Of a stretch of 33,694 nucleotides of DNA, positions 7,207 to 28,231 are shown in pieces. Source of the DNA: an uncultured Lachnospiraceae bacterium (GTDB taxonomy: Bacteria; Bacillota; Clostridia; Lachnospirales; Lachnospiraceae); NCBI GenBank assembly GCA_947623805.1, contig CANQHZ010000037.1, forward strand, positions 1 through 33,694, in the 5' to 3' direction. Position numbers and translations under genes: made by a program. Within the stretch, counting starts at the first letter, position 1, and the number at the start of each line of letters is the position of its first letter. Below the pieces are notes generated by a model. The model did not search any database. It was not told where the DNA came from and saw only the letters and a list, made by a program, of their open reading frames with translations.

Positions 7207-7214
7207 AATAGATA

Positions 7215-7370
7215 ATTGCGAAATGTGTTCTCAACCGTCCGAATTTAGTCAAAATATATAAAAATCGCATCAATGTACTAAAGATACAGTACATAGGTGC
7301 AGCAAGCTGCAAGACGCCGCTTATTTTATATATTTTGCCTAAATTCTATGTTATCGAATAGAGTTTTGCA
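7215..7370 (+). repeat. Palindromic intergenic element, copy 1
   Basis: Outer arms 7241-7263 and 7324-7346 are inverted copies of 23 bases with one mismatch (T7249 opposite C7338). The centre holds ATGTACT/AGTACAT (7-bp arms) and TGCAGC/GCTGCA hairpins. Conserved flanks run from ATTGCGAAATGTGTTCT on the left to GAATAGAGTTTTGCA on the right. The same element recurs at 10660-10816 and 18463-18590. This copy starts 9 bases after the MATE stop, in its orientation. Confidence 0.9.
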
Positions 7371-7411
7371 AATATTAAAAAAGCAATAAAAAAGAAAGAG
7401 GCGTAACAGAT

Positions 7412-8800
7412 ATGCAGAAAGAAAATAAAAAATATGAGATTGACATGTGCAGCGGTTCTGTGTTCAAGAAAATGCTGATATTCGCTGTGCCGTTGATGTT
7501 TTCAAGTATTTTGCAGCTTTTGTTTAATGCTGCGGATATCGTGGTGGTGGGGCGCTTTGCGGGCGACAACGCGCTGGCGGCTGTGGGTTCAAATGGTTCG
7601 CTGATTAATCTTATCACCAATCTTTTCATAGGGCTGTCAATCGGTTCAAACGTGCTGACGGCGCAGTATTACGGCGCTAAGCGAGATGATGATTTAAAAG
7701 AAACTGTGCATACTTCGATGCTGCTTAGCATTTACAGCGGCATCATACTGACAATCGTAGGTATCGCCTCGGCGCGTGTGCTGCTGGAGCTTATGCAGGC
7801 GCCTGAGGAAGTGCTTAATCTGGCTGTGCTGTATCTTCGCATATATTTCCTCGGAATGACTTCGACTATGGTTTATAACTTTGGCAGTGCGATTTTGAGG
7901 GCGGTCGGAGATACTAAGCGCCCGCTTTATTTCCTGCTCAGCGCGGGCATTATAAATGTCATCTTGAATTTGTTTTTTGTAATCGTGTGCCATTGGGGAG
8001 TGGCGGGAGTAGCTGTAGCTACGGCTGTTTCACAAACTGTTTCGGCGCTCTTGGTGGTGCGCTGCCTTATGAAAGAGCAGGGCGGCATACATCTTGATCT
8101 GAAACAGCTTGCCATTTCTCGAGAAAAATTTATGAAGATAGTGCAGATTGGCTTGCCTGCGGGTTTTCAGGGCGTGGTGTTCTCGCTTTCAAATGTTGTC
8201 ATACAGTCGGCTGTAAATTCATTCGGCGCGATATCCGTAGCGGGCAATTCGGCGGCTGTAAACATAGAGGGCTTTGTGTATATGGGAATGAACGCGTTCT
8301 ATCAGGCGGCGATATCGTTTACAAGCCAGAATTACGGCGCGCACGAGTACAAGCGTGTGTATAAGATTTTGATAGCGGGCGAGATTTATGCTATGGCTGT
8401 AGGGCTGCTGCTTGGCAATCTTGCCGTACACTTTGGAAATTCTCTGCTTGGCATATATTCCCAGAGCCCTGATGTAATAGCGGCGGGACTTAGGCGAATG
8501 AGGATAATCTGCACGACATACGCGCTCTGCGGCATGATGGACGTGTTTGTAGGCGTGATGAGAGGGCTTGGGTATTCCGTGGTGCCTATGGTGGTATCGC
8601 TGATTGGCGCCTGCGGGCTGCGTCTTTTGTGGATTGCGACGATTTTCCATATACCGCAGTACCACAGCCTTGCGGCAGTGTATATTTCGTATCCGATAAC
8701 ATGGGCTATAACTATGCTTATTCATGCGCTGACGTTTGCGTTTGTGGCGCATAAGGTGCTCGTGGGAAAAGCGGACAGGACAGTGAACGAACCCGTTTAA
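7412..8800 (+). CDS. MATE family efflux transporter (second of two)
   Basis: 462 residues, about 12 hydrophobic segments, with the MATE N-terminal pattern (FKKMLIFAVPLMFSSILQ, then NAADIVVVGRFAGDNALAAVGS). It is a diverged paralog of the preceding transporter, not a recent duplicate. It is an inner-membrane antiporter of unknown substrate. Ribosome binding site AGAGGCG lies about 10 bases before the ATG. It is separated from the first MATE gene by 205 bases that consist mostly of repeat copy 1. A new promoter lies after it for the isomerase gene. Confidence 0.9.
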   Translation: MQKENKKYEIDMCSGSVFKKMLIFAVPLMFSSILQLLFNAADIVVVGRFAGDNALAAVGSNGSLINLITNLFIGLSIGSNVLTAQYYGAKRDDDLKETVHTSMLLSIYSGIILTIVGIASARVLLELMQAPEEVLNLAVLYLRIYFLGMTSTMVYNFGSAILRAVGDTKRPLYFLLSAGIINVILNLFFVIVCHWGVAGVAVATAVSQTVSALLVVRCLMKEQGGIHLDLKQLAISREKFMKIVQIGLPAGFQGVVFSLSNVVIQSAVNSFGAISVAGNSAAVNIEGFVYMGMNAFYQAAISFTSQNYGAHEYKRVYKILIAGEIYAMAVGLLLGNLAVHFGNSLLGIYSQSPDVIAAGLRRMRIICTTYALCGMMDVFVGVMRGLGYSVVPMVVSLIGACGLRLLWIATIFHIPQYHSLAAVYISYPITWAITMLIHALTFAFVAHKVLVGKADRTVNEPV

Positions 8801-8818
8801 AAATATATTTTATTTTTC

Positions 8819-8847
8819 TTGATTTTTAACGGCATACAATTTAAAAT
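8819..8847 (+). promoter_or_regulatory. Putative promoter and hairpin leader of the isomerase gene
   Basis: TTGATT (8819-8824) and TAAAAT (8842-8847) are spaced by 17 bases. The leader then carries two small perfect hairpins, GGCG/CGCC (8855-8866) and CGGCA/TGCCG with a GATA loop (8885-8898), before the AGGAGG site at 8918-8923. Confidence 0.4.
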
Positions 8848-8931
8848 TAAGTCAGGCGGTGTCGCCGGCAAACAGAAAGTATATCGGCAGATATGCCGGT
8901 AACAAAAATTATAAATTAGGAGGATTAAGAA

Positions 8932-10416
8932 ATGAACAATTTACCACAGGTAAAGGTCGGCATTGTGGCGGTAAGCCGCGATTGTTTCCCTGAAAGCTTG
9001 TCAGTAAACAGGAGGAAAGCACTTGTAAAAGCGTATACTGACAAGTACGGCGCAGACGACATTTACGAGTGTCCTGTATGTATCGTAGAGAGCGAGATAC
9101 ATATGGTTCAGGCGCTTGAAGACATCAAGAAAGCGGGCTGCAATGCGCTCTGCGTATACCTTGGCAACTTTGGCCCTGAGATTTCCGAGACATTGCTTGC
9201 AAAGCATTTTGACGGACCTGCAATGTTTATCGCGGCGGCAGAGGAGACACAGAATGACCTCGTTGGCGGACGCGGCGACGCATATTGCGGCATGCTCAAC
9301 GCAAGCTACAATTTAAAGCTCAGAGGTGTAAAAGCATACATTCCTGAATACCCCGTAGGCACGGCTGACGAGTGCGCCGATATGATTAATGAATTTATTC
9401 CTATCGCAAGAGCGATTGTAGGACTTAAAGATTTGAAGATTATCTCATTTGGTCCGAGGCCTCTCAATTTCCTTGCATGCAATGCGCCTATACAGCAGCT
9501 TTACAATCTCGGTGTTGAGATTGAGGAAAATTCGGAGCTTGACCTTTTTGAAGCGTTCAATAAGCATGCAGGCGATGAAAGAATACCTGCAAAGGTTAAG
9601 GAGATGGAGGCTGAGCTTGGCACAGGCAACAATAAGCCGGAAGTGCTTCCCAAGCTTGCGCAGTATGAGCTTACATTGCTTGACTGGATTGAGGACCACA
9701 AGGGCTACCGCAAATATGTGGCAATCGCAGGCAAATGCTGGCCCGCTTTCCAGACACAGTTTGGTTTCGTTCCCTGCTATGTAAACAGCCGTCTTACAGG
9801 CATGGGCATTCCCGTTTCGTGCGAGGTTGATATTTACGGCTGCCTTAGCGAGTTTATCGGTACATGTGTGAGCAACGATGCCGTTACTCTGCTTGATATC
9901 AACAACACTGTTCCCGCCGATATGTACAATGAGTCAATCAAGGGCAAGTACAATTACACGGCGAACGATACATTTATGGGCTTCCACTGCGGTAATACCA
10001 CGACAAAGAAGCTTTCGTCATGCAGCATGAAGTACCAGATGATTATGGCAAGGACGCTTCCCGAGGAGGTTACGCAGGGTACGCTTGAGGGCGACATCAT
10101 TCCCGGCGATATCACTTTCTATCGTTTACAGTCTACGGCGGACTGCAAACTCCGCGCGTATATCGCACAAGGCGAAATCCTTCCCGTGGCTACCAGGTCA
10201 TTCGGCGGCATAGGTGTATTCGCTATTCCCGAGATGGAGCGTTTTTATCGTCATGTACTGATTGAGAAGAACTATCCTCATCACGGCGCGGTTGCTTTCG
10301 GTCACTTTGGAAAGGCTTTGTTTGAGGTATTTAAGTATATCGGAGTGCCTGTAGAGGACCTCAATTACAACCAGCCAAAATCACTGCCGTATCCTACGGA
10401 AAATCCGTTTAAATAA
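8932..10416 (+). CDS. L-fucose/L-arabinose isomerase family protein
   Basis: 494 residues with the fold signature of fucose/arabinose isomerases, which interconvert aldoses and ketoses in the cytoplasm using Mn2+. Likely metal ligands are E298 (SCEVDIYG), D322 (LLDINNT) and a late His at 450-451 (YPHHGAVAFGHFG), by analogy with FucI Glu, Asp and His; this alignment is by eye. The sequence is well diverged from true FucI and AraA, so the substrate is unknown. Strong AGGAGG site and good start. It is followed by a terminator, so it forms its own unit. No kinase, aldolase or sugar transporter gene adjoins, which leaves the pathway open. Confidence 0.82.
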   Translation: MNNLPQVKVGIVAVSRDCFPESLSVNRRKALVKAYTDKYGADDIYECPVCIVESEIHMVQALEDIKKAGCNALCVYLGNFGPEISETLLAKHFDGPAMFIAAAEETQNDLVGGRGDAYCGMLNASYNLKLRGVKAYIPEYPVGTADECADMINEFIPIARAIVGLKDLKIISFGPRPLNFLACNAPIQQLYNLGVEIEENSELDLFEAFNKHAGDERIPAKVKEMEAELGTGNNKPEVLPKLAQYELTLLDWIEDHKGYRKYVAIAGKCWPAFQTQFGFVPCYVNSRLTGMGIPVSCEVDIYGCLSEFIGTCVSNDAVTLLDINNTVPADMYNESIKGKYNYTANDTFMGFHCGNTTTKKLSSCSMKYQMIMARTLPEEVTQGTLEGDIIPGDITFYRLQSTADCKLRAYIAQGEILPVATRSFGGIGVFAIPEMERFYRHVLIEKNYPHHGAVAFGHFGKALFEVFKYIGVPVEDLNYNQPKSLPYPTENPFK

Positions 10417-10428
10417 GAGATAAAAAAC

Positions 10429-10463
10429 AAAGGGGAACTGCCTGCAGAGGCGGTTCCTTTTTT
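10429..10463 (+). terminator. Rho-independent terminator after the isomerase gene
   Basis: GGAACTGCC and GGCGGTTCC (one G-U pair) form a stem with loop TGCAGA, preceded by an A-run and followed by TTTTTT (10458-10463). Confidence 0.85.
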
Positions 10464-10659
10464 ATCGTTGAAAGTACAGCTGCGTCTGTAAGGCAGTGCT
10501 TTGAATAATTGCGTCAGCAGTGAAAAGTGGGAGAAGTATTAGAATAGTCGGTCGAAAGATTGGTATAATAATTAAAAATGCAACAACCATAATAAGAGGC
10601 TGCCGCATAACGTGGCATAGCCTTTTATAGATTCCTCGTATTCAGCTACAAAAGTTATC
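10464..10659. other. Non-coding stretch between convergent genes
   Basis: No ORF or ribosome binding site was found here. It holds one further hairpin (10594-10626) and then leads into repeat copy 2. Confidence 0.5.
10594..10626. terminator. Terminator-like hairpin between convergent genes
   Basis: AGGCT-GCC (10597-10604) pairs with GGC-AT-AGCCT (10614-10623), a stem with a two-base bulge followed by TTTT on the plus strand. It may back up the isomerase terminator or stop transcripts from the opposing AAA/nuclease gene. Confidence 0.4.
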
Positions 10660-10816
10660 TGCAAAACTCTATTCGACAACATAGAATTTAGGCAAAATAT
10701 ATAAAATAAGCGGCGTCTTGCAGCGTAGCTGCACCTATGTACTGTATCTTTAGTACATTGACGCGATTTTTATATATTTTGCCTAAATTCGGACAGTTTA
10801 GAACACATTTCGCAAT
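10660..10816 (-). repeat. Palindromic intergenic element, copy 2
   Basis: Inverse orientation to copy 1. Arms 10684-10706 and 10768-10790 are perfectly complementary over 23 bases, carrying GGC/GCC where copy 3 has GTC/GAC. The central ATGTACT/AGTACAT and TGCAGC-TAC-GCTGCA hairpins and both flanks match copy 1. It begins 44 bases downstream of the AAA/nuclease stop, again in the same orientation as its upstream gene. Confidence 0.9.
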
Positions 10817-10859
10817 CACTATAAAAATATAAACATGACAAAACACTTATTTCTACGCC

Positions 10860-12560
10860 TCAATTACCAATCAAGACTTCTTTCCCATTAAACGCAAACC
10901 CATATTTCCGTATATTCTCCTCAGGTATCCCCTTTGCAAGCAATGCCTGCTCATATTTTTTATCTTTTATCTGCTGCAGCGCCGATTTGACAGTGTCTCT
11001 TAATGTCTGCTCGTCATCATCGTCATGTACTTTAAATTCTATTATAATCGCAACATCACCTGCATTTTTGGGTTCAAGCATGATGTCGTAACGTCCGAAT
11101 CCACTTTCACGATTGGAAGTGAGCACATAATTTTCCCTGAGCTCAACTAACAGTCCCAGTACGAAACCATAGTAAAACCGCTCAGGTTGTGTCTTTGCAG
11201 ACCCCTTTCTTCCAGTGTCAAAGAAACTGAAAACCTCACAGGTGATGCGGTTCATATATTCGTTCATAGCCTTAAGCTCACCATTTAGCAGCGCTTTTAT
11301 GAAGTAACTGTAATCGGAGGCGACAGTGCCAAACCAGTCCTTAATCATGACCTCAAACATACAGCGCACCTCAAAATTTGTAAGCGCCAGTTCATAGCGC
11401 GGATGTTTCCATTCTTCAAAGCCGATTTCTTCAAAGCCCTCAACATTCAATATTTTCAAATACCCGCATGCGAGCAGGAAACTCCATATGCTGTCCCTTG
11501 TTCCATTAAGGCGGTTGTATACAATCTGCTCGTCAATTTCACTTACAACAGGCTGTCCAAGCAGCAGTCCTTTAAATTCCTCCTTAATTTCAGCCTCAGC
11601 CCCTTGTATCAGCTTTGAAACAAGACTGTTTGAACTGGTGTTTGCCCAATAGGTGTTAAATTTTTGGGTATCAAGATAATTTATTATCGACCAAGGATTG
11701 TATATGTCGTGCATGTTTCCAAATGTAAAACCGTCATACCAGAATTTGACTTTTTCCTTTTTATCAATTCCGTATTCGTCCATTGCCGCGAATACTTCGC
11801 TTTCAGTAAACCCAAACGCAGCAGCGTATTCATTTGAAGTGGTGGTTACAACCTTTAGATTGTTCAAATCCGAAAATATTGACTCCTTACTAACTCTGGT
11901 TATGCCGGTCATAATGCCGCGCTCAAGCCATTGATTAGTTTTAAAGGTGGAGTTGAACAAACTTCTGGTAAAGGCGACAAGTTCCTCCCAAAATCCGCTG
12001 ACATATGCTTCCTGCATAGGCGTGTCGTATTCATCAAGTAGTATTATGACATTTCTGTCATAATATCTATGCAGGAAGTCGCATAACCGATTAAGCGCCA
12101 TGGGTGCGTCAAGCTCTGTCATTGCCCCCATCATTCTCTCATAGTATTCCTTTTCGTATTTTGACAAAAGAGGAGAGTCGAGAAGAAAACGGTTTTGTTC
12201 AAAAAGTATTTTGAGCAGCTCACATATCCGGTATACGGTATTTGGATATGAAATTTCTTTGACATTGGCAAAACTTAAGCTGATGACAGGATAAGTACCC
12301 TGCAAATCGCGGTATTTTTGTTCTTCCCATATGGAAAGCCCGTCAAATAAGTCGCCTCGTCCGGCATATTTTACGGAAAAGAACTTTTCCAGCATATTTA
12401 TAGTGAGTGTTTTGCCAAAGCGCCTCGGACGTGTGATGAGCGTGACGCTGTCGTTGCTCTCCCACCATTCCTTTATGAAAGAAGTCTTGTCCACATAAAA
12501 GCAGTTGTTTTTGATAATCGTCTCAAAATCCTGAATACCTATGCCGACTGTTCGAGCCAT
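10860..12560 (-). CDS. AAA-ATPase-like protein with C-terminal PD-(D/E)XK nuclease domain
   Basis: 566 residues. The N-terminal AAA-ATPase-like domain has a Walker A-type loop RPRRFGKT (44-51) and Walker B VIILLDEYD (171-179). The C-terminal region carries a PD-(D/E)XK nuclease-like core, with D492 in YDIML, then IIEFKV (E508, K510), and QQIKDKKY after it. This architecture (AAA-ATPase-like plus PDDEXK_9) is very abundant in Lachnospiraceae and Bacteroides, often in many copies; its biological role is not settled. AAGGAGG lies close upstream of the ATG. It is a lone minus-strand gene between plus-strand neighbours and is followed by a palindromic repeat. Mobile-element or defence links are possible but not shown here. 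Confidence 0.88.
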   Translation of the reverse strand: MARTVGIGIQDFETIIKNNCFYVDKTSFIKEWWESNDSVTLITRPRRFGKTLTINMLEKFFSVKYAGRGDLFDGLSIWEEQKYRDLQGTYPVISLSFANVKEISYPNTVYRICELLKILFEQNRFLLDSPLLSKYEKEYYERMMGAMTELDAPMALNRLCDFLHRYYDRNVIILLDEYDTPMQEAYVSGFWEELVAFTRSLFNSTFKTNQWLERGIMTGITRVSKESIFSDLNNLKVVTTTSNEYAAAFGFTESEVFAAMDEYGIDKKEKVKFWYDGFTFGNMHDIYNPWSIINYLDTQKFNTYWANTSSNSLVSKLIQGAEAEIKEEFKGLLLGQPVVSEIDEQIVYNRLNGTRDSIWSFLLACGYLKILNVEGFEEIGFEEWKHPRYELALTNFEVRCMFEVMIKDWFGTVASDYSYFIKALLNGELKAMNEYMNRITCEVFSFFDTGRKGSAKTQPERFYYGFVLGLLVELRENYVLTSNRESGFGRYDIMLEPKNAGDVAIIIEFKVHDDDDEQTLRDTVKSALQQIKDKKYEQALLAKGIPEENIRKYGFAFNGKEVLIGN

Positions 12561-12683
12561 ATAAGTGCCTCCTTAAATATCTTATACATATAGTTTAACA
12601 CGCTTTATTGCGTATTGTCATTAGTATTTGTCATTATTTTCAGGCATTCTTTATTTTCAGTGAAGAAAATATTCCAAGACCTA

Positions 12684-12713
12684 TTTACATATTATCCCTG
12701 CGATTTGTATAAT
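12684..12713 (+). promoter_or_regulatory. Putative sigma-A promoter of the GH27 gene
   Basis: TTTACA (12684-12689) and TATAAT (12708-12713) with an 18-base spacer. The leader contains a small CGCCG/CGGCG hairpin at about 12759-12780 before the GGAG site. Confidence 0.55.
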
Positions 12714-12811
12714 AAGTTTATATGTACAAATTTCAAGGACTTTTTAACACTGCAAATCGCCGTCAAACTTTTTGCGGCGGCTTAAAAATTTTAGAATGAA
12801 GGAGATACGGA

Positions 12812-14134
12812 ATGAAAACAGAAACGGACAAAAATAAATTTGCAAAAACACCACCAATGGGGTGGAACAGCTACGACTATTATGACACTGCCGTGACAGA
12901 GGCACAGGTAAAGGCAAACGCCGATATTATGGCAAGGGAATTAAAGGAATACGGCTGGGAGTATATTGTGGTTGATATCGAATGGTATGCGAACGATGCA
13001 GGCACAATGCGCGATAAATTTCAGTATATACCATTCGGCGATTTGGAGATGGATGAGTATTCGCGCCTGCAGCCAAGTCCCAGGAGATTTCCGTCTTCTG
13101 CAGGCGGAAAGGGGTTCAAGCCGCTGGCGGATTACATACACAATTTGGGACTAAAATTCGGTATACACATAATGCGTGGAATACCGCGCCGTGCCGCCGA
13201 AACACATTCCAAGGTTATCGGTACTGATATGACAGCCGACATGATAGCGGACCCCTCATCAATATGCGGATGGAATCCCGATATGTACGGAGTGCGCGAC
13301 ACTTCGGCAGGACAGGCGTATTACGATTCGATTATTCAGATGTATGCGGACTGGGGCGTTGACTTTATCAAATGCGATGACATATGCGACAGTTGGCTGT
13401 ACCGAAACGACGGTTTTTCGGGCTGGCACGAGACACAAATGCTGCATAGAGCAATATTAAAGACGGGCAGACCAATAGTGCTCAGTCTCTCACCGGGACC
13501 TGCACACATAGACAGGGCATGGCAATATTGTGAAAACGCCAATATGTGGCGCATAACCGATGATTTTTGGGATACCTGGGAGCTTTTGAAAAACATGTTT
13601 TGGCGCTGCGAGTTGTGGCAGGACCACGTAAGGAAAGGATGCTTTCCGGATTGCGATATGATTCCCCTGGGCAAAATCGGCGGCGGTTTCGGCAACGGCG
13701 AAAGAAATTGCGGCCTTACATATGATGAACAAATGACAATGATGTCACTTTGGTGTATGTTCCGCTCACCGCTTATGCTTGGCGCGGAGCTTACAAAACT
13801 TGATGACAGGACGCGCGCGCTCATAACAAACAGAGAGCTTTTGGAACTTTTAGGTGATGGACGGCACGGCACGCAGTTGTTTAGAGATGACGAAAAGGCA
13901 GTATGGAAAAACGAAAATAAAGAAGCACAAGGGTTGCATATAGCGCTTTTTAATCTGAGTGACAGTGAAAAAATGATTGAGTGGGAGCTTGGAGGCGACT
14001 TTGAATTATATGATATATGGAGCAGGCAAAAAGGCGCGACAGTCGGCGACAAAATAGCTGCGGATGTGCCGCCTCACGGAGTTAAGCATTACAAAATAAT
14101 AGTTGAAAATTCTCATTTGATTGATTATAATTAA
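12812..14134 (+). CDS. GH27-family glycosidase (alpha-galactosidase-like)
   Basis: 440 residues. Opens with the clan GH-D signature TPPMGWNSYDYY (13-24). The expected nucleophile is D189 in DFIKCDD and the acid/base D251 in WRITDDFW, followed by a small C-terminal beta domain (about 350-440). GH27 enzymes remove alpha-galactosyl residues, but the family also includes alpha-N-acetylgalactosaminidases and beta-L-arabinopyranosidases. The long insert at 60-100 and the IHIMRGIPRR motif mark a bacterial subfamily whose substrate I cannot name. No signal peptide, so it probably acts on imported oligosaccharides. AAGGAG ribosome binding site. No terminator separates it from the chemoreceptor gene 47 bases on. 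Confidence 0.87.
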   Translation: MKTETDKNKFAKTPPMGWNSYDYYDTAVTEAQVKANADIMARELKEYGWEYIVVDIEWYANDAGTMRDKFQYIPFGDLEMDEYSRLQPSPRRFPSSAGGKGFKPLADYIHNLGLKFGIHIMRGIPRRAAETHSKVIGTDMTADMIADPSSICGWNPDMYGVRDTSAGQAYYDSIIQMYADWGVDFIKCDDICDSWLYRNDGFSGWHETQMLHRAILKTGRPIVLSLSPGPAHIDRAWQYCENANMWRITDDFWDTWELLKNMFWRCELWQDHVRKGCFPDCDMIPLGKIGGGFGNGERNCGLTYDEQMTMMSLWCMFRSPLMLGAELTKLDDRTRALITNRELLELLGDGRHGTQLFRDDEKAVWKNENKEAQGLHIALFNLSDSEKMIEWELGGDFELYDIWSRQKGATVGDKIAADVPPHGVKHYKIIVENSHLIDYN

Positions 14135-14181
14135 AATGTCTGCTGAAAGGCGGCGAATTGTAAAAGGAGGAGAAGATTCAC

Positions 14182-15528
14182 ATGGAGAACAAATCTATCA
14201 AAAAAGTATCAATCATATTCAAAATCACTGCCATTATGTTTATAGTATTGGCAATAGCATTTGTGCTGAATGATTTTTTTGCCTGCAAGCTGATAGAGGC
14301 AAACATGTCAAAGGATATGAATATTTCTATGGATGAGGCAGCCGCGGCAGTAAGACAGCTAATAGGAATGTTCACACTGATAAGCTTTGTGATTGGCGTG
14401 ATAGCGCTCGTAATACTTTCCGCAATTCTTCAAAAGCTGCTTATAATACCCTTGAAGAACGCGGTTACGGAGATACATAGAGTAGCAAGATACGACCTCA
14501 CGGAAGGCAATATGGCTTCCGTCAGAGTCAACACCACGCGTACCGATGAGATAGGCAGCATCTGCAGAAACATAGTGCTTATGCAGGACAATCTAAAAGA
14601 AATAGTAGAGCAGATAAAAAATTCTTCCAATGTACTTCTGGAAAGCGTAAGCACGCTTTCAGACAGGACAGGACAGGTAAAAAATTCTTCGGATGAGATA
14701 AGCAATACGATGAACGAACTCAGCCGCGGCGCAATGATGCAGGCGGAGGAGACATCAAGAGGTGCCCAGGAGGTTGCTACGCTTGACGGTCTTATAGTCG
14801 GAAATCTTGACGACACCAAAAATCTCCACAAGAATGCCGAGGAGATGGATAGGGTTAAAAATGACGGACTTGTCACAATACGCGACCTTATAGAAAAGAC
14901 TGCAAGGAGCCGTGAGAGCATATCGGCCGTCAAAGAGGCAATGCAACAGAACAGTGAGCAGGCGCACAAGATAGAGCTTACAAGTCAAAAGATTAATGAC
15001 ATTGCGGACCAGACAAATCTTCTCTCTCTCAACGCGGCAATCGAGGCGGCGCGTGCGGGTGAGGCAGGACGCGGCTTTGCGGTAGTAGCCGAGGAGATAA
15101 GAGGACTTGCGGAGGAGACAAACACACTTACAAACGAAATCGGCGGCATTATCCAAGAGCTTCTTGAAAAGACAGATGACGCGACAAAGAACATGGAGAG
15201 CATGGCTCAGATTTTTGAGCAGCAGGAAAAGAGTGTAGGTGAGACGCGCGAAAAGTTCATTCAGATAGAGCAGTGTCTTGGCAGTGTCAAGGACAGTGCG
15301 GATATGCTTTATGAGTCGAGCAACAATATGATGTCAAGCAAAAATGTCATTGTATCAATGATAGAGGGTGTGTCAGCGGCAAGCGAGGAGAATGCGGCAG
15401 GCACGCAGGAAGTGCTTGCTGCCGTGGACTCGCAGGGGGGCGTAATCGCAGACTTGGCAGGCATGAGCCAAGAGCTTACCCAGGTAGCCGAGGCTTTGAA
15501 CGAGCAGGCGCACAAGTTCAACTATTAA
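14182..15528 (+). CDS. Methyl-accepting chemotaxis protein with minimal outer domain
   Basis: 448 residues. Two membrane segments (about 10-30 and 61-83) leave only about 30 residues outside, so there is no classical ligand-binding domain. A HAMP segment (about 84-135) leads to a coiled-coil signalling domain with the conserved hairpin tip [20 protein letters not shown] (275-294) and [12 protein letters not shown]. It relays signals to CheA/CheW in the receptor array. It may sense membrane state, an intracellular cue or a partner protein. GGAGGAG precedes the start. The close downstream position to the GH27 gene, with no terminator between, suggests they are co-transcribed. No C-terminal CheR/CheB tether pentapeptide was seen. 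Confidence 0.93.
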
Positions 15529-15546
15529 AGAGAAAACATCAAATAG

Positions 15547-15585
15547 AAATTCCCTGTGAGCTTTTGGCTTACAGGGAATTTTTTT
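15547..15585. terminator. Bidirectional terminator between convergent genes
   Basis: AAATTCCCTGT (15547-15557) pairs perfectly with ACAGGGAATTT (15571-15581), extended by three inner pairs including one wobble. T-run on the plus strand and A/T flanks on both sides suit both the chemoreceptor and the opposing c-di-GMP gene. Confidence 0.88.
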
Positions 15586-17260
15586 AGCTTGTCTTCTCGT
15601 TGATAAACATGTTCATAAATTCATCAAACGGACACGGACGCCCAAAATAGTAGCCTTGGCAGTAGTCAGGTTTCAGCAGCTTAATCCGATTGAGCTCCTG
15701 CTGTGTTTCCACACCCTCCACACATACGCGCAGTTTCATGCTGTGCGCCATGTTTATCATAAGCTGCAGGAGGTTAAACTCGTAATCGTTTTCGATTGCC
15801 TTTACCGTAAAACTACGGTCAATTTTTATGATGTCAGGTTTTAAATCGTTGAAATAATGAAAATTTGAATATCCCGTGCCAAAGTCATCAAGCGCGAGAC
15901 TTATATGCTGTTCTTTCATGCGTGAACGCAGCTTGCTGACACGACTGTCAGGTGTGAGCACGCCGCTTTCTGTGAGCTCAATAATTACTGTGGACGGTAT
16001 GATGTTGTAGTCCGATACAGCTGTGAGTATCTCGGAGATAATGTTGCTCTTTAATACCTGAATATAGGAAATATTTATGCTGATTTTAAAATCGGGGTTG
16101 ACTTTATGTATCTCTGTGCAAAGTTCAAGCGATTTGTGCAGCATCCATTTGCCGACAGGTATTATCAGACAAGTCTCCTCCAAAAGCGGTATAAAAACAC
16201 CGGGCGACACTGTGCCAAATTCCTCGGTATGGAAACGCATAAGCGACTCAGCTCCGTAAAGCTCTCCTGTGTCTGCCTTGAAAAGAGGCTGCAGATATGC
16301 TTCAAATCCCTCAAAGTCATTGTTGACAGCTTTTCGCAAAAGCTGAATCATTCGCCTGCTTTTCAAAAATTTTTCGTAGGCAGGATAGTTGAATATCCAG
16401 CAGCGGTTTTTACCGTCACGCTTTGCCTCACTAAGAGCAAACTCCGAAAATTTCATGACATCATTGAACGTGCAGCCCTTGTAGGCATCGCTTGCCAGTA
16501 TACCGCCGGAAACCGTAAATACAGCCTCATAACGTGAGTCTTCGACAAGCCTGTCTATGGAATATCTGATATTCACATATTGTTCGAGAGCTTCCTCTAC
16601 ATGGCGGTTGGCAAAATCAATAACGATAAACTCATCTGCCATGGCGCGATAGAGCCTCTGGTCGGGATAGAGACACTTTGAGATGCAGTCAGCGGTCTTT
16701 TTCAGCAGCATGTCGCCGTATTCGATACCGAGTTTTTCGTTTATAGGCTTAAAATCATCAATGCCAAGCCTCAGTATATATCCGCTGTTCATCATATAAA
16801 AGTTTTCTTCAAAATACGCTTTCAGGCTGGAAAGCCCCAGAAGTCCACTTATATTGTCAGCCATTTGGCGTGTGCCGATTTCGTTTATGCAGCCTATCAT
16901 ATATAGCACCTTGCCGTTGTCCTTCACTACAAAGCCGCGGCAGTTTATCCATATTGGCTTGTTATCTTTTGACAGCCAGCGATATTGAAGGTCGTGAAAT
17001 TCCTTTTTTCCCTGTATAAGCATGTTCAAATCCTTTTGCAGCACATCTATGTCTTCCGGATATACAAAAAGCTCATGCGTTTTGATGACATCACCAAATT
17101 GTGATGCAGGCAGCGCGAAACGTTCTGTGGCGGAGGGTGAAATATAGTAATAGTCATTTTGCAAGTCGTATACATAGATGTAGTCATCCATGCAAGGATA
17201 AAGCATATCAATCACGTCGCATATCTGCTTGACCGAAATGTCCTTATATTTTTCAGACAT
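15584..17260 (-). CDS. PAS - degenerate GGDEF - EAL protein, probable c-di-GMP phosphodiesterase
   Basis: 558 residues with no membrane segment. A PAS domain (about 20-128) is followed by a GGDEF-fold domain (about 135-290) whose signature has become MADEF (207-211), so cyclase activity is unlikely. The EAL domain (about 300-550) reads ESL (338-340) but keeps the other expected catalytic residues: N396, E428, D458-D459 in DDFGTG, K479 in IKIDRS, E515 in VEGVET and Q535 in QGYYFGRP. It should hydrolyse c-di-GMP, with PAS and the inactive GGDEF domain as regulators. AGGAGG lies 8 bases before the start. Monocistronic, with its own likely promoter upstream on the minus strand. Confidence 0.9.
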   Translation of the reverse strand: MSEKYKDISVKQICDVIDMLYPCMDDYIYVYDLQNDYYYISPSATERFALPASQFGDVIKTHELFVYPEDIDVLQKDLNMLIQGKKEFHDLQYRWLSKDNKPIWINCRGFVVKDNGKVLYMIGCINEIGTRQMADNISGLLGLSSLKAYFEENFYMMNSGYILRLGIDDFKPINEKLGIEYGDMLLKKTADCISKCLYPDQRLYRAMADEFIVIDFANRHVEEALEQYVNIRYSIDRLVEDSRYEAVFTVSGGILASDAYKGCTFNDVMKFSEFALSEAKRDGKNRCWIFNYPAYEKFLKSRRMIQLLRKAVNNDFEGFEAYLQPLFKADTGELYGAESLMRFHTEEFGTVSPGVFIPLLEETCLIIPVGKWMLHKSLELCTEIHKVNPDFKISINISYIQVLKSNIISEILTAVSDYNIIPSTVIIELTESGVLTPDSRVSKLRSRMKEQHISLALDDFGTGYSNFHYFNDLKPDIIKIDRSFTVKAIENDYEFNLLQLMINMAHSMKLRVCVEGVETQQELNRIKLLKPDYCQGYYFGRPCPFDEFMNMFINEKTS

Positions 17261-17311
17261 GCCAACACCTCCTAAAATTTTAAAATCAATGTATCAAAAT
17301 TTATACAATTT

Positions 17312-17340
17312 ATTATAATTGATAATTATGCTGTGCGCAA
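17312..17340 (-). promoter_or_regulatory. Putative minus-strand promoter of the PAS-GGDEF-EAL gene
   Basis: Read on the minus strand: TTGCGC (17340-17335), 17-base spacer, perfect TATAAT (17317-17312). Confidence 0.45.
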
Positions 17341-17397
17341 GTAAAAGAAGAATTAAATTTCAGTTATATTTTGAAGATATTCATGAAACGGGCGGCA

Positions 17398-17426
17398 TTG
17401 TTTTTTGGGGGCGGCTGTGGTATAAT
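17398..17426 (+). promoter_or_regulatory. Putative sigma-A promoter of holA
   Basis: TTGTTT (17398-17403), 17 bases, TATAAT (17421-17426). It sits between two candidate starts for holA and rules out the upstream one at 17371. Confidence 0.5.
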
Positions 17427-17466
17427 ACCAGCGAAACACAAATTTGGAAAGGATAAGAGCCTGAAA

Positions 17467-18453
17467 ATGAAACGCATAGCAGAAGATATAAAAAGCGGTC
17501 AGTTCAGCCATATTTACCTGCTCTACGGAGAGGAGGCATATCTTAGGAGGCAGTATTGTGACAAGCTCAAAGCCGCTCTGTCAAACGAGGGCGATACAAT
17601 GAACTGCACTATATATTCAGGCAAGGATATCAATATAAATGAAGTGATTGATATGGCAGGCACGATGCCTTTTTTTGCGGAGCGCAGGGTTATTGTCATC
17701 AATAACAGCGGCTGGTTTAAAAATACAAACGAGCAGGCGCTTGGACTGATAAAAAATCTTCCGGATACCACTTATATCATATTTGTGGAGGAGGAAGTCG
17801 ATAAGCGTGGCAAGCTTTACAAGGCAGTGGCGTCAAATGGCTATGCCGCCGCATGTGAGGTGCAAGACGAGACGACGCTAAAAAAGTGGATAATGGGTAT
17901 ACTAAAAAAAGAAAATAAGCAGATAACGTCAGACGCTCTAAACCTCCTACTCGAAAAAACCGGCACAAATATGGAAAACATAAGACGTGAGCTTGAAAAG
18001 CTCATCTGCTATAAATATTTTGACGAAGGTATAACGGCAAGTGACGTGGAAACGCTGTGCTCATCTCAAATTCAGAATAAAATTTTCGATATGGTAGAGG
18101 CGGTCGCAAGGAAAGACCAAAAAGAGGCGCTTGATTTGTATTATGACCTGATTGCCCTAAAGGAAGCTCCTATAAAGATACTTTCACTAATCACCCGCCA
18201 GTTTAATATGCTGCTGCAGGTAAAAGAGATGAAGAACAAGGGATACTCTGAGGCAAACATTGCGTCACAGACAGGGTTGAACGCTTATTATCTCAAGAAG
18301 AAATATATTCCGCAGGCATCAAGCTTTGAGCTTGCGCAGTTAAAAGGTGCGTTGAAAAGGTGCGTTGAGGCGGATGAGAGCGTAAAGACGGGAAAAATGT
18401 CTGATATTATGAGTGTGGAGCTTATTATAGTGGGGTTGAGTGCAAAAATTTGA
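17467..18453 (+). CDS. holA: DNA polymerase III subunit delta
   Basis: 328 residues. The delta subunit opens the sliding clamp within the clamp-loader complex during replication. The N-terminal pattern HIYLLYGEEAYLRRQY (about 15-30) is characteristic of Gram-positive HolA, followed by the AAA+-like domain and the helical collar domain (about 210-328) with IKILSLITRQFNMLLQVKEMK. The frame is open from an ATG at 17371, but a likely promoter -10 box (17421-17426) lies inside that extension. GGAAAGGA precedes the ATG at 17467, and starting there gives the usual short N-terminus. The 3' neighbour is repeat copy 3, ten bases after the stop. Confidence 0.92.
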   Translation: MKRIAEDIKSGQFSHIYLLYGEEAYLRRQYCDKLKAALSNEGDTMNCTIYSGKDININEVIDMAGTMPFFAERRVIVINNSGWFKNTNEQALGLIKNLPDTTYIIFVEEEVDKRGKLYKAVASNGYAAACEVQDETTLKKWIMGILKKENKQITSDALNLLLEKTGTNMENIRRELEKLICYKYFDEGITASDVETLCSSQIQNKIFDMVEAVARKDQKEALDLYYDLIALKEAPIKILSLITRQFNMLLQVKEMKNKGYSEANIASQTGLNAYYLKKKYIPQASSFELAQLKGALKRCVEADESVKTGKMSDIMSVELIIVGLSAKI

Positions 18454-18462
18454 GTGGTTTAG

Positions 18463-18590
18463 GAAAGGTGTTCTAAGCCGTCCGAATTTAGTCAAAATAT
18501 ATAAAATCGCAGCTAGGTGCTGCTACGCAGCAAGATGCCGCTTATTTTATATATTTTGACTAAATTCTATGTTGTCGAATAGAGCTTCGT
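18463..18590 (+). repeat. Palindromic intergenic element, copy 3 (short form)
   Basis: Arms 18484-18506 and 18545-18567 are perfectly complementary over 23 bases, with GTC/GAC at the position where copy 2 has GGC/GCC. The first central hairpin is deleted. The second reads TGCTGC-TAC-GCAGCA, with the middle pair swapped relative to copy 2. It starts 10 bases after the holA stop, on the same strand. Confidence 0.9.
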
Positions 18591-18635
18591 GAATGTTTAA
18601 GTGCATTATTTATTTAATTAAAAGGAGGGATTATT

Positions 18636-28007: not shown

Positions 28008-28231
28008 GAAGTCTGTCAGATATGCCTGCCCGCACGGAGGCGGCAGTCGGGTATTTACTAATGCAATGAGTTCGAGGCGCATCAAGGGGTGCGGGTACGG
28101 CGCAAATCGCCATCCGTGGCTCTGTGCGCCTCGATTTGCATCCGTGCAAATCGCCCCTTAGGTGTTTCCATTGCATAAGTAAATACGCCGACTGCCGCCT
28201 AGTGTGCTGGCAGGCATATCTGACAGACTTC
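28008..28231. repeat. Long complex palindrome after the hydrogenase gene
   Basis: Bases 28008-28030 are the exact inverse complement of 28209-28231. Further in, 28038-28050 pairs perfectly with 28188-28200, and 28051-28068 pairs with 28169-28186 with one mismatch. The centre holds perfect hairpins CGAGGCGCA/TGCGCCTCG (28073-28081 with 28125-28133), GGCG/CGCC (28099-28111) and GATTTGCA/TGCAAATC (28133-28152). AAGGGG (28084-28089) can also pair with CCCCTT (28154-28159), which would be a pseudoknot with the first. It is unrelated in sequence to the three-copy element. It begins 33 bases after the stop. Confidence 0.88.

Follow-up and report, generated by a model that had tools for sequence, protein, structure and literature searches.

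Three palindromic elements in the window

The DNA analysed here, which we call the window, is a stretch of 33,694 nt from an uncultured Lachnospiraceae bacterium (GCA_947623805.1, contig CANQHZ010000037.1, positions 1–33,694, forward strand). It carries three copies of a palindromic element, which adjoin a MATE gene, an AAA-ATPase/PDDEXK gene and holA, respectively. An earlier inspection of the letters alone (the sequence-only reading) had placed the copies at 7215–7370, 10660–10816 and 18463–18590, and had considered a folded RNA element at the 3′ end of the upstream gene, a terminator-like module and a miniature inverted-repeat transposable element (MITE). All three copies are present as described, on the +, − and + strands, and the full elements extend beyond those limits to the boundaries of conservation (Table 1). 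The two paired changes singled out at the time are also there: at one arm pair, copies 1, 2 and 3 have T.C, G-C and T-A, respectively, and the central hairpin changes from TGCAGC... to TGCTGC....

The copies had further been said to stand always just after a stop codon. In the window they do, with left ends 2 bp and 38 bp past a stop and one overlapping it, but the rule does not extend to the family: of the 73 copies in the genome from which the window comes (the source genome) for which both neighbouring genes were called, 52 have a stop next to their left end. Copy 1 lies near the MATE stop because that was its landing site, the 14-bp target duplication including the stop codon itself.

When 82 copies are aligned by their arms, conservation starts and stops at TAGG...CCTA, with AT-rich background beyond. 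The order of parts is left end TAGGTAATTGCGAAATGTGTTCTAAA, CCGTCC, left arm GAATTTAGNCAAAATATATAAAA, loop, right arm TTTTATATATTTTGNCTAAATTC and TATGTTGTCGAATAGAGTTTTGCAAATGCCTA; the MITE ends are TAGGYAWTTGCRAAA, and the terminal inverted repeats TAGGTAATTGCGAAA and TAGGCATTTGCAAAA. The long form measures ∼141–176 bp and is too small to encode a transposase. Its interior, the cassette, consists of 23-bp arms flanking a GC-rich loop that occurs in several forms: A (32 bases), B (37–38), C (54–66, with a nested hairpin ATGTACTG...CAGTACAT), D (34, GCGACTTGGTGCGCGATGCGAAACGTCGC) and rarer ones. There is also a second arm type, GAATTTGTGYGAAATATACAAAA, changed at paired positions and accompanied by a matching partner arm. 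Among 157 long copies scored in four species, 60 have an L-type left and an R-type right end, two have the reverse and nine have two ends of the same type, while in the remainder one end was too decayed or undecided. At two loci of sister species (L089, between 6141 and 6397; L212, between 8035 and 8298) the loop holds an extra element of ∼100 bp between two copies of CTAG. The ends of this element, TGTACTGTAC... and ...GTACAGCAYA, resemble those of the nested hairpin in form C.

Table 1. Parts of the three element copies, in window coordinates
Feature	Position	Strand	Remarks
Copy 1, left target duplication AAAAAACAATAAAA	7195–7208	+	holds MATE stop codon 7204–7206; 13/14 bases identical to right duplication
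Copy 1, full element	7209–7377	+	left end TAGATAATTGCGAAA, right end TTTTGCAAATATTA; loop form C (nested hairpin)
Copy 1, left arm GAATTTAGTCAAAATATATAAAA	7241–7263	+	
Copy 1, loop	7264–7323	+	
Copy 1, right arm TTTTATATATTTTGCCTAAATTC	7324–7346	+	
Copy 1, right target duplication AAAAAGCAATAAAA	7378–7391	+	14 bp, one difference from left duplication
Copy 2, full element (ends approximate)	10653–10821	−	loop form C; between convergent fucose isomerase (+) and AAA-ATPase/PDDEXK (−) genes
Copy 2, right arm	10684–10706	−	
Copy 2, left arm	10768–10790	−	
Copy 3, full element (ends approximate)	18452–18599	+	left end overlaps holA stop 18451–18453; loop form B
Copy 3, left arm	18484–18506	+	
Copy 3, right arm	18545–18567	+	

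A family found in a few related genomes

The sequence-only reading had proposed counting copies in the genome and its relatives, and we did so with the left-arm pattern. At up to three mismatches, the source genome gave 84 oriented matches (43 forward, 41 reverse) against none for a reversed control pattern, which excludes chance. The search covered 98 genomes, 38 of the genus (the source genome included), 22 of the family and 38 of the order. Matches were found in four, all of one genus: the source genome with 84, G019 with 85, G028 with 31 and G026 with 10 diverged ones. Of the 37 other genus genomes searched, 34 had no arm match, nor had any of the family and order genomes. A scan of 84,980 species genomes, from which the source genome is possibly absent, found the exact palindrome in 49 stretches of only three metagenome assemblies, those of uncultured Lachnospiraceae Lapin-012, -023 and -030. 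For comparisons between species, O denotes the source genome, B denotes G019 pooled with the Lapin-023 stretches, and P the Lapin-012 stretches. One copy used as query had no match in plasmid and phage collections, nor did the exact pattern in viral contigs. A literature search found no published account of this repeat family, which is not proof of absence.

Mobility and a probable partner insertion sequence

The family is a MITE, a non-autonomous element of the DDE type, so that the MITE option of the sequence-only reading is borne out by terminal inverted repeats, target duplications, empty sites, short forms and an insertion sequence (IS) with the same ends. Direct repeats scoring at least 9 stand at the boundaries of 11 of 77 copies in the source genome (both flanks), whereas 0.4 would be expected with shuffled flanks. 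The duplications are ∼9–14 bp long. The TA at the ends had suggested a TA-only duplication, as in MITEs of the ERIC/RUP type, but this was rejected on the observed lengths. Empty sites in sister species, which had also been proposed as a check, were found cleanly in two cases: L096 of the source genome is the empty counterpart of the sister copy L190:3963, with TATAATCAATT on either side, and the sister site L077 is empty for the copy at L141 (CAGTATTAC). Twelve candidates were listed in all; those beyond the two clean ones are diverged, ambiguous or adjoin a second copy, and the gap at L113 has no clear duplication.

Short forms are part of the same family. A 61-bp form with both ends and no cassette gave 17 matches in four of the 38 genus genomes, the same four that have arm matches, and exact duplications of 10–12 bp were present at seven of 12 examined loci of this form (five distinct sites). 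Other short forms, of 33–65 bp, consist of two ends and little else. Miniatures of 33–50 bp, with the ends back to back, lie at L169:2044–2076, L159:2071–2120 and L152:2045–2085, where the adjoining repeats resemble duplications.

The short forms bear on the idea that the cassette is a second mobile unit, which entered an older 61-bp MITE at a CTAAA site, perhaps in the way that IS1272 is reported to replace stem-loops (PMC5678879). The 61-bp forms lack the cassette and have the rest intact, a CTAAA repeat flanks the cassette, and at two sites the source genome has a short form where the sister species has a long one (L136/L091 and L153/L212). Nevertheless, outer-element remnants adjoin 189 of 190 cassettes (flank score of at least 6 of 12), so that a free insertion is nowhere in evidence; the same short form would also arise if the stretch between the CTAAA repeats were deleted; and cassettes at shared sites mostly retain the state of arm position 9 (see below). 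We consider a separate mobile cassette unlikely.

An IS with matching ends was found on pCY360, a plasmid of Butyrivibrio proteoclasticus. It is 1766 bp long, has the ends TAGGCGTTTGCAAAA and TAGGTAATTGCGAAA and is flanked by a 14-bp duplication, CATTTATTTATAAA. In the pCY360 stretch (L239, 359–1056 and 1071–2836) the IS copy lies directly beside part of a second copy, and the incomplete gene table lists no gene there. In G026 (L235), a DDE_Tnp_1 match adjoins an exact TAGGTAATTGCGAAA end. The protein at L235 (395 residues, cut by the contig end) has a full-query relative on pCY360 at 81% identity and another on a Roseburia plasmid at 70%; the Roseburia IS has one exact end, one end with two mismatches and no visible duplication. 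The edge of contig C103 in the source genome carries the same IS end as L235, with 86% identity over 168 bp beginning at the end repeat, and a contig edge of G028 (L237) holds a relative of the L235 transposase at 48.5% identity. DDE_Tnp_1 (PF01609) has four matches in the source genome and 12 in three relatives. None of the four source loci has an exact element end, and among the 12, in a listing that covered pairs of ends, only L235 has a pair of which one end is exact.

The partner transposase scores 53.1 bits with PF05598 (cut-off 23.1) and 21.8 bits with PF13751, under the cut-off of 25.1. A DUF772 and a DDE transposase domain together are typical of the IS1182 family, near which IS1272 also belongs. 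Partners of the IS1, IS1595 or IS256 type were sought with PF03400, PF12762 and PF00872, which matched in none of the four host genomes; PF06782 also had no match in these four, but its control matched nowhere and the result is uninformative. The MITE was probably moved by a separate transposase acting in trans.

Conservation of the cassette between species

The behaviour of the cassette can be followed where source and sister species hold the element at the same site. Query copies were found by their arm pattern (up to four mismatches per arm), and the pattern was not demanded on the sister side. The O–B set comprises 34 comparisons at 33 sites (L131 in both orientations); eight of 42 source copies were left out because their sister site, whether empty, short or ambiguous, held <100 bp. 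Arms without position 9 differed at 30 of 1495 bases (2.0%). Position 9 itself differed at 10 of 67 (14.9%), and for the outer parts of these elements the count was 145 of 1341 (10.8%); Fisher tests give p = 3e-6 for arms against position 9 and p = 2e-23 for arms against outer parts. The largest contributors to the arm differences are L136/L193, with a change of arm type (12), and L150/L211 (11). In a broader comparison (n = 91, reciprocal pairs included) the arms differ by 2.8%, the outer parts by 12.2% and the near flanks by 9–10%. Two filtered comparisons, of 53 and 33 pairs, demanded the arm pattern in both species, and it is the unfiltered ones that we rely on. Within the source genome, too, 66 of 79 copies are perfect at the 44 arm sites, whereas their outer segments are off consensus at 2–29 of 44.

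These contrasts speak against a plain neutral MITE with a cassette that owes its conservation to recent insertion alone. Many copies, insertion polymorphism and identical arms are what such an element would show, but the arm comparison used the very sites and copies in which the outer segments and flanks had diverged by ∼8–11%. Unless arms mutate far more slowly for physical reasons, this contradicts recent insertion as the cause, and we regard it as very improbable.

Another possibility is that the arms appear conserved because copies overwrite each other by gene conversion, or because template switching rewrites one arm from the other; such switching is known both to fix and to create hairpins (PMC8794818, PMC8604942). 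In favour of this, 13 of 53 same-site pairs differ in loop class, both arm and loop types differ at one shared site (L136 against L091/L193), the interior is flipped relative to the ends in two copies against 60 normal ones among the 157 scored, and the variable positions (arm position 9 and one in the D loop) also vary across the family. The test is position 9, which lies within the arm, changes at roughly the rate of the outer parts and should have been reshuffled by gene conversion. Its state is shared between species in 42 of 53 pairs, where shuffling predicts 15.1, and the T.C mismatch, which template switching should correct, is retained in 14 of 19. Pairs that look unconverted have the fewest arm changes. 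In the 25 O–B pairs with equal position 9 (11 of them mismatched), the arms differ at 4 of 1100 bases (0.36%), against 8.2% for the outer parts and 7.7% for the flanks; the seven such O–P pairs have 4 of 308 arm differences and the seven B–P pairs 0 of 308. With sister copies as query, 20 equal-position-9 pairs gave 6 of 879 arm differences against 6.0% in the outer parts. As most sites keep their own position-9 state, even a mismatched one, neither gene conversion nor template switching was judged sufficient as the main cause of arm conservation; in the loops either may have played a part. We think it unlikely that overwriting explains the arms.

The D loops had 15 changes in 18 pairs of 34 bases, only at the edges and at one inner position. 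The orientation of the cassette matters little to its conservation: with the arm pattern required in both species, arm divergence is 1.36% for copies in sense (20 pairs), 0.85% in antisense (8) and 2.27% in other contexts (5). At two sites, L113 and L114, the interior is oppositely oriented between species. The source copy at L114:8403–8549 has its interior inverted relative to both ends, and the same site in the sister species (L055) is not inverted. At most of the sites compared, the cassette arms are thus conserved in place in either orientation to the neighbouring genes. We read the comparisons as purifying selection that acts in place on the cassette, independent of orientation.

Pairing and RNA signals

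Covariation was scored on 36 of 48 distinct arm pairs; pairs with long loops were omitted, as was a single one whose loop is very short. Both sides have changed in 14 of 33 pairs over these 36 cassettes, and the covariation score is 0.223, against 0.129 for shuffled and at most 0.075 for slid alignments; further pair types are fewer than in shuffles (24 against 28.5). The arm pair on which the sequence-only reading had based its covariation is position 9, and there the argument fails: in 184 cassettes (a few sites possibly counted twice) it is the least-paired position, Watson–Crick in 58.7%, with T.C the commonest state (65). A sense-RNA reading of that pair was therefore rejected. The other arm pairs do covary strongly, and the importance of the paired structure is thus upheld by another route, namely arm covariation together with conservation in place between species.

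A rival reading is that of an RNA which folds in the sense transcript of the upstream gene, acting as a 3′ untranslated region element or terminator and selected for that role though borne on a mobile element. The cassettes of the three window copies fold very stably, with z-scores of −5.9 to −9.3 on both strands, and the covariation is as such an element would have it. The arm cells, comprising 775 Watson–Crick, 3 G-T, 17 A-C and 32 other pairs, show no G-U tolerance of the kind expected for RNA from one strand, G-T being no commoner than A-C; among distinct arm pairs, excluding position 9, the counts are 10 and 21. The stem of the loop has 16 G-T, 10 A-C and 47 other cells, and one position supplies 10 of the 16 G-T, so a sense-strand RNA may be present at the loop stem. 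One loop pair occurs as T-A, T.G and C-G on the sense strand. None of the three window copies matched Rfam at the gathering score; a relaxed search with copies 1 and 3 gave sub-threshold matches only, the best being rli51 at copy 3 (30.8 bits against 48). A scan of the window copies for the terminator-like pattern of a GC stem and a following T run gave sites in copy 3 only, on the − strand.

Orientation and genomic placement

Gene calls came from a simple open reading frame model rather than a standard gene finder, and five of 78 source copies at contig ends were omitted. The remaining 73 copies lie between co-directional genes in 59 cases, convergent genes in eight and divergent genes in six. 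Gaps of at least 40 bp without a copy number 306 co-directional, 24 convergent and 35 divergent, so the type of gap is ordinary, 59/73 being close to the background share of 306/365.

Within the co-directional gaps the element is not randomly oriented: 44 copies are in sense and 15 in antisense (p = 2e-4), and over four species the counts are 85 and 31, with orthologs counted in each. The orientation expected by the sequence-only reading is therefore present as a bias, but it is not fixed, and it is confounded with replication direction. As many as 1393 of 1572 genes follow the GC skew, which makes gene orientation and replication direction inseparable here; in the seven informative exceptions the element goes with the skew rather than the gene in five, and in convergent and divergent gaps 16 of 24 elements follow the skew. 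Moreover, all six placed short forms are in sense although they lack the cassette, so the bias is not tied to it, and the antisense copies are as conserved as the sense ones in the eight pairs available. With position 9 the least-paired position, orientation not fixed and no G-T excess in the arms, the earlier evidence for a folded 3′ RNA element does not stand, and we rate such an element as unlikely.

Two further features were noted in the window. A TwoAYGGAY RNA (28038–28200, − strand, 74.6 bits against a cut-off of 43) lies inside a 28-nt inverted repeat (28008–28035/28204–28231, 96% complementary). The AAA-ATPase_like/PDDEXK_9 gene (10860–12560, − strand) has similar genes, of ∼62–67% DNA identity, in other stretches of these genomes.

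Interpretation and relation to known elements

Taken as a whole, we favour a MITE moved by an IS1182-like transposase, with a cassette under purifying selection in place, and give this a probability of about 0.7. An IS1182-like IS would supply the transposase, which would work in trans on the 15-bp MITE ends, insert the MITE into intergenic stretches and duplicate ∼9–14 bp. The palindromic cassette would then sit within a drifting outer shell, with selection on the hairpin itself, most likely either as a hairpin in the transcript of either strand (in mRNA processing, stabilisation or termination between genes) or as a DNA site that is extruded or bound by protein. Because conservation does not depend on orientation and the arms show no wobble, a role exerted from either strand is favoured.

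Several points weigh against this interpretation. In the source genome only the IS end at the contig edge was found, and no complete autonomous IS. The partner transposase reaches 70.1 bits with the IS1182 model of NCBIfam (NF033551), whose cut-off is 270; as the resemblance stays far below this, we call the partner IS1182-like only. Finding query copies by their arm pattern misses badly decayed ones. The nine of 34 O–B pairs with unequal position 9 have arm differences of 6.6% and outer differences of 18.3%, and some exchange, greater age or wrong pairing may lie behind them. Loop class differs in 13 of 53 pairs (one locus twice), and in ten of these one species has the form-C nested hairpin while the other lacks it. 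The slow change of the arms may instead have a physical cause, a low mutation rate that spares position 9. Finally, the eight of 42 source copies with <100 bp at the sister site mean that no role common to all sites is implied.

Other hairpin MITEs offer partial parallels. ERIC/IRU, Correia/NEMIS, RUP and YPAL are likewise mobile, ∼100–200 bp long, with long stem-loops, terminal inverted repeats in most and TA at most termini; the present family differs in its 9–14 bp duplications, in a cassette far more conserved than the terminal repeats and in having several loop forms at the same site (PMC2229807). The pneumococcal BOX, RUP and SPRITE are MITE-like, with a modular interior in BOX, a terminator-like fold in SPRITE and possible effects on co-transcribed genes, but are over-represented between convergent genes, whereas our family follows the background (PMC3049150). 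Both accounts describe hairpin MITEs that act on mRNAs (PMC2229807, PMC3049150). The bcr1 element of Bacillus cereus is also small, considered mobile and present in tens to >100 copies confined to one species group; bcr mobility is tied to TTTAT motifs and a possible site-specific recombination, while the ends and duplications seen here fit a DDE transposase (PMC6542083). REPINs, too, are mobile palindromic hairpins in which compensatory changes occur and the sequence shows signs of selection, but they use a tyrosine transposase (RAYT) in place of inverted ends with target duplications and a DDE-type IS (PMC3116915). IS1182-like elements and IS1272 are relatives by transposase, and IS1272 is reported to act on stem-loops, replacing them without duplications, whereas the pCY360 IS and these MITEs have duplications of 9–14 bp (PMC5678879). 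By analogy, its stem-loop replacement suggests itself as the nearest published idea for the exchange of loops or cassettes.

More tentatively, and at somewhat less than even odds, the interior of this MITE may now be a widespread functional hairpin, kept at tens of sites in three related species by purifying selection in either orientation, with one free position per arm and one in the D loop, while the shell decays and the loop is exchanged among a few standard forms. Covarying stems are usually taken as proof of a functional RNA. This family amounts to a test with built-in controls, in the free arm position, the drifting outer segments, the two orientations and the dozens of sites in sister species, and such controls could separate RNA function, DNA function and the mutational upkeep of hairpins. 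If the selection is real, the interior of a transposon would have been adopted as a common intergenic part in these gut bacteria.

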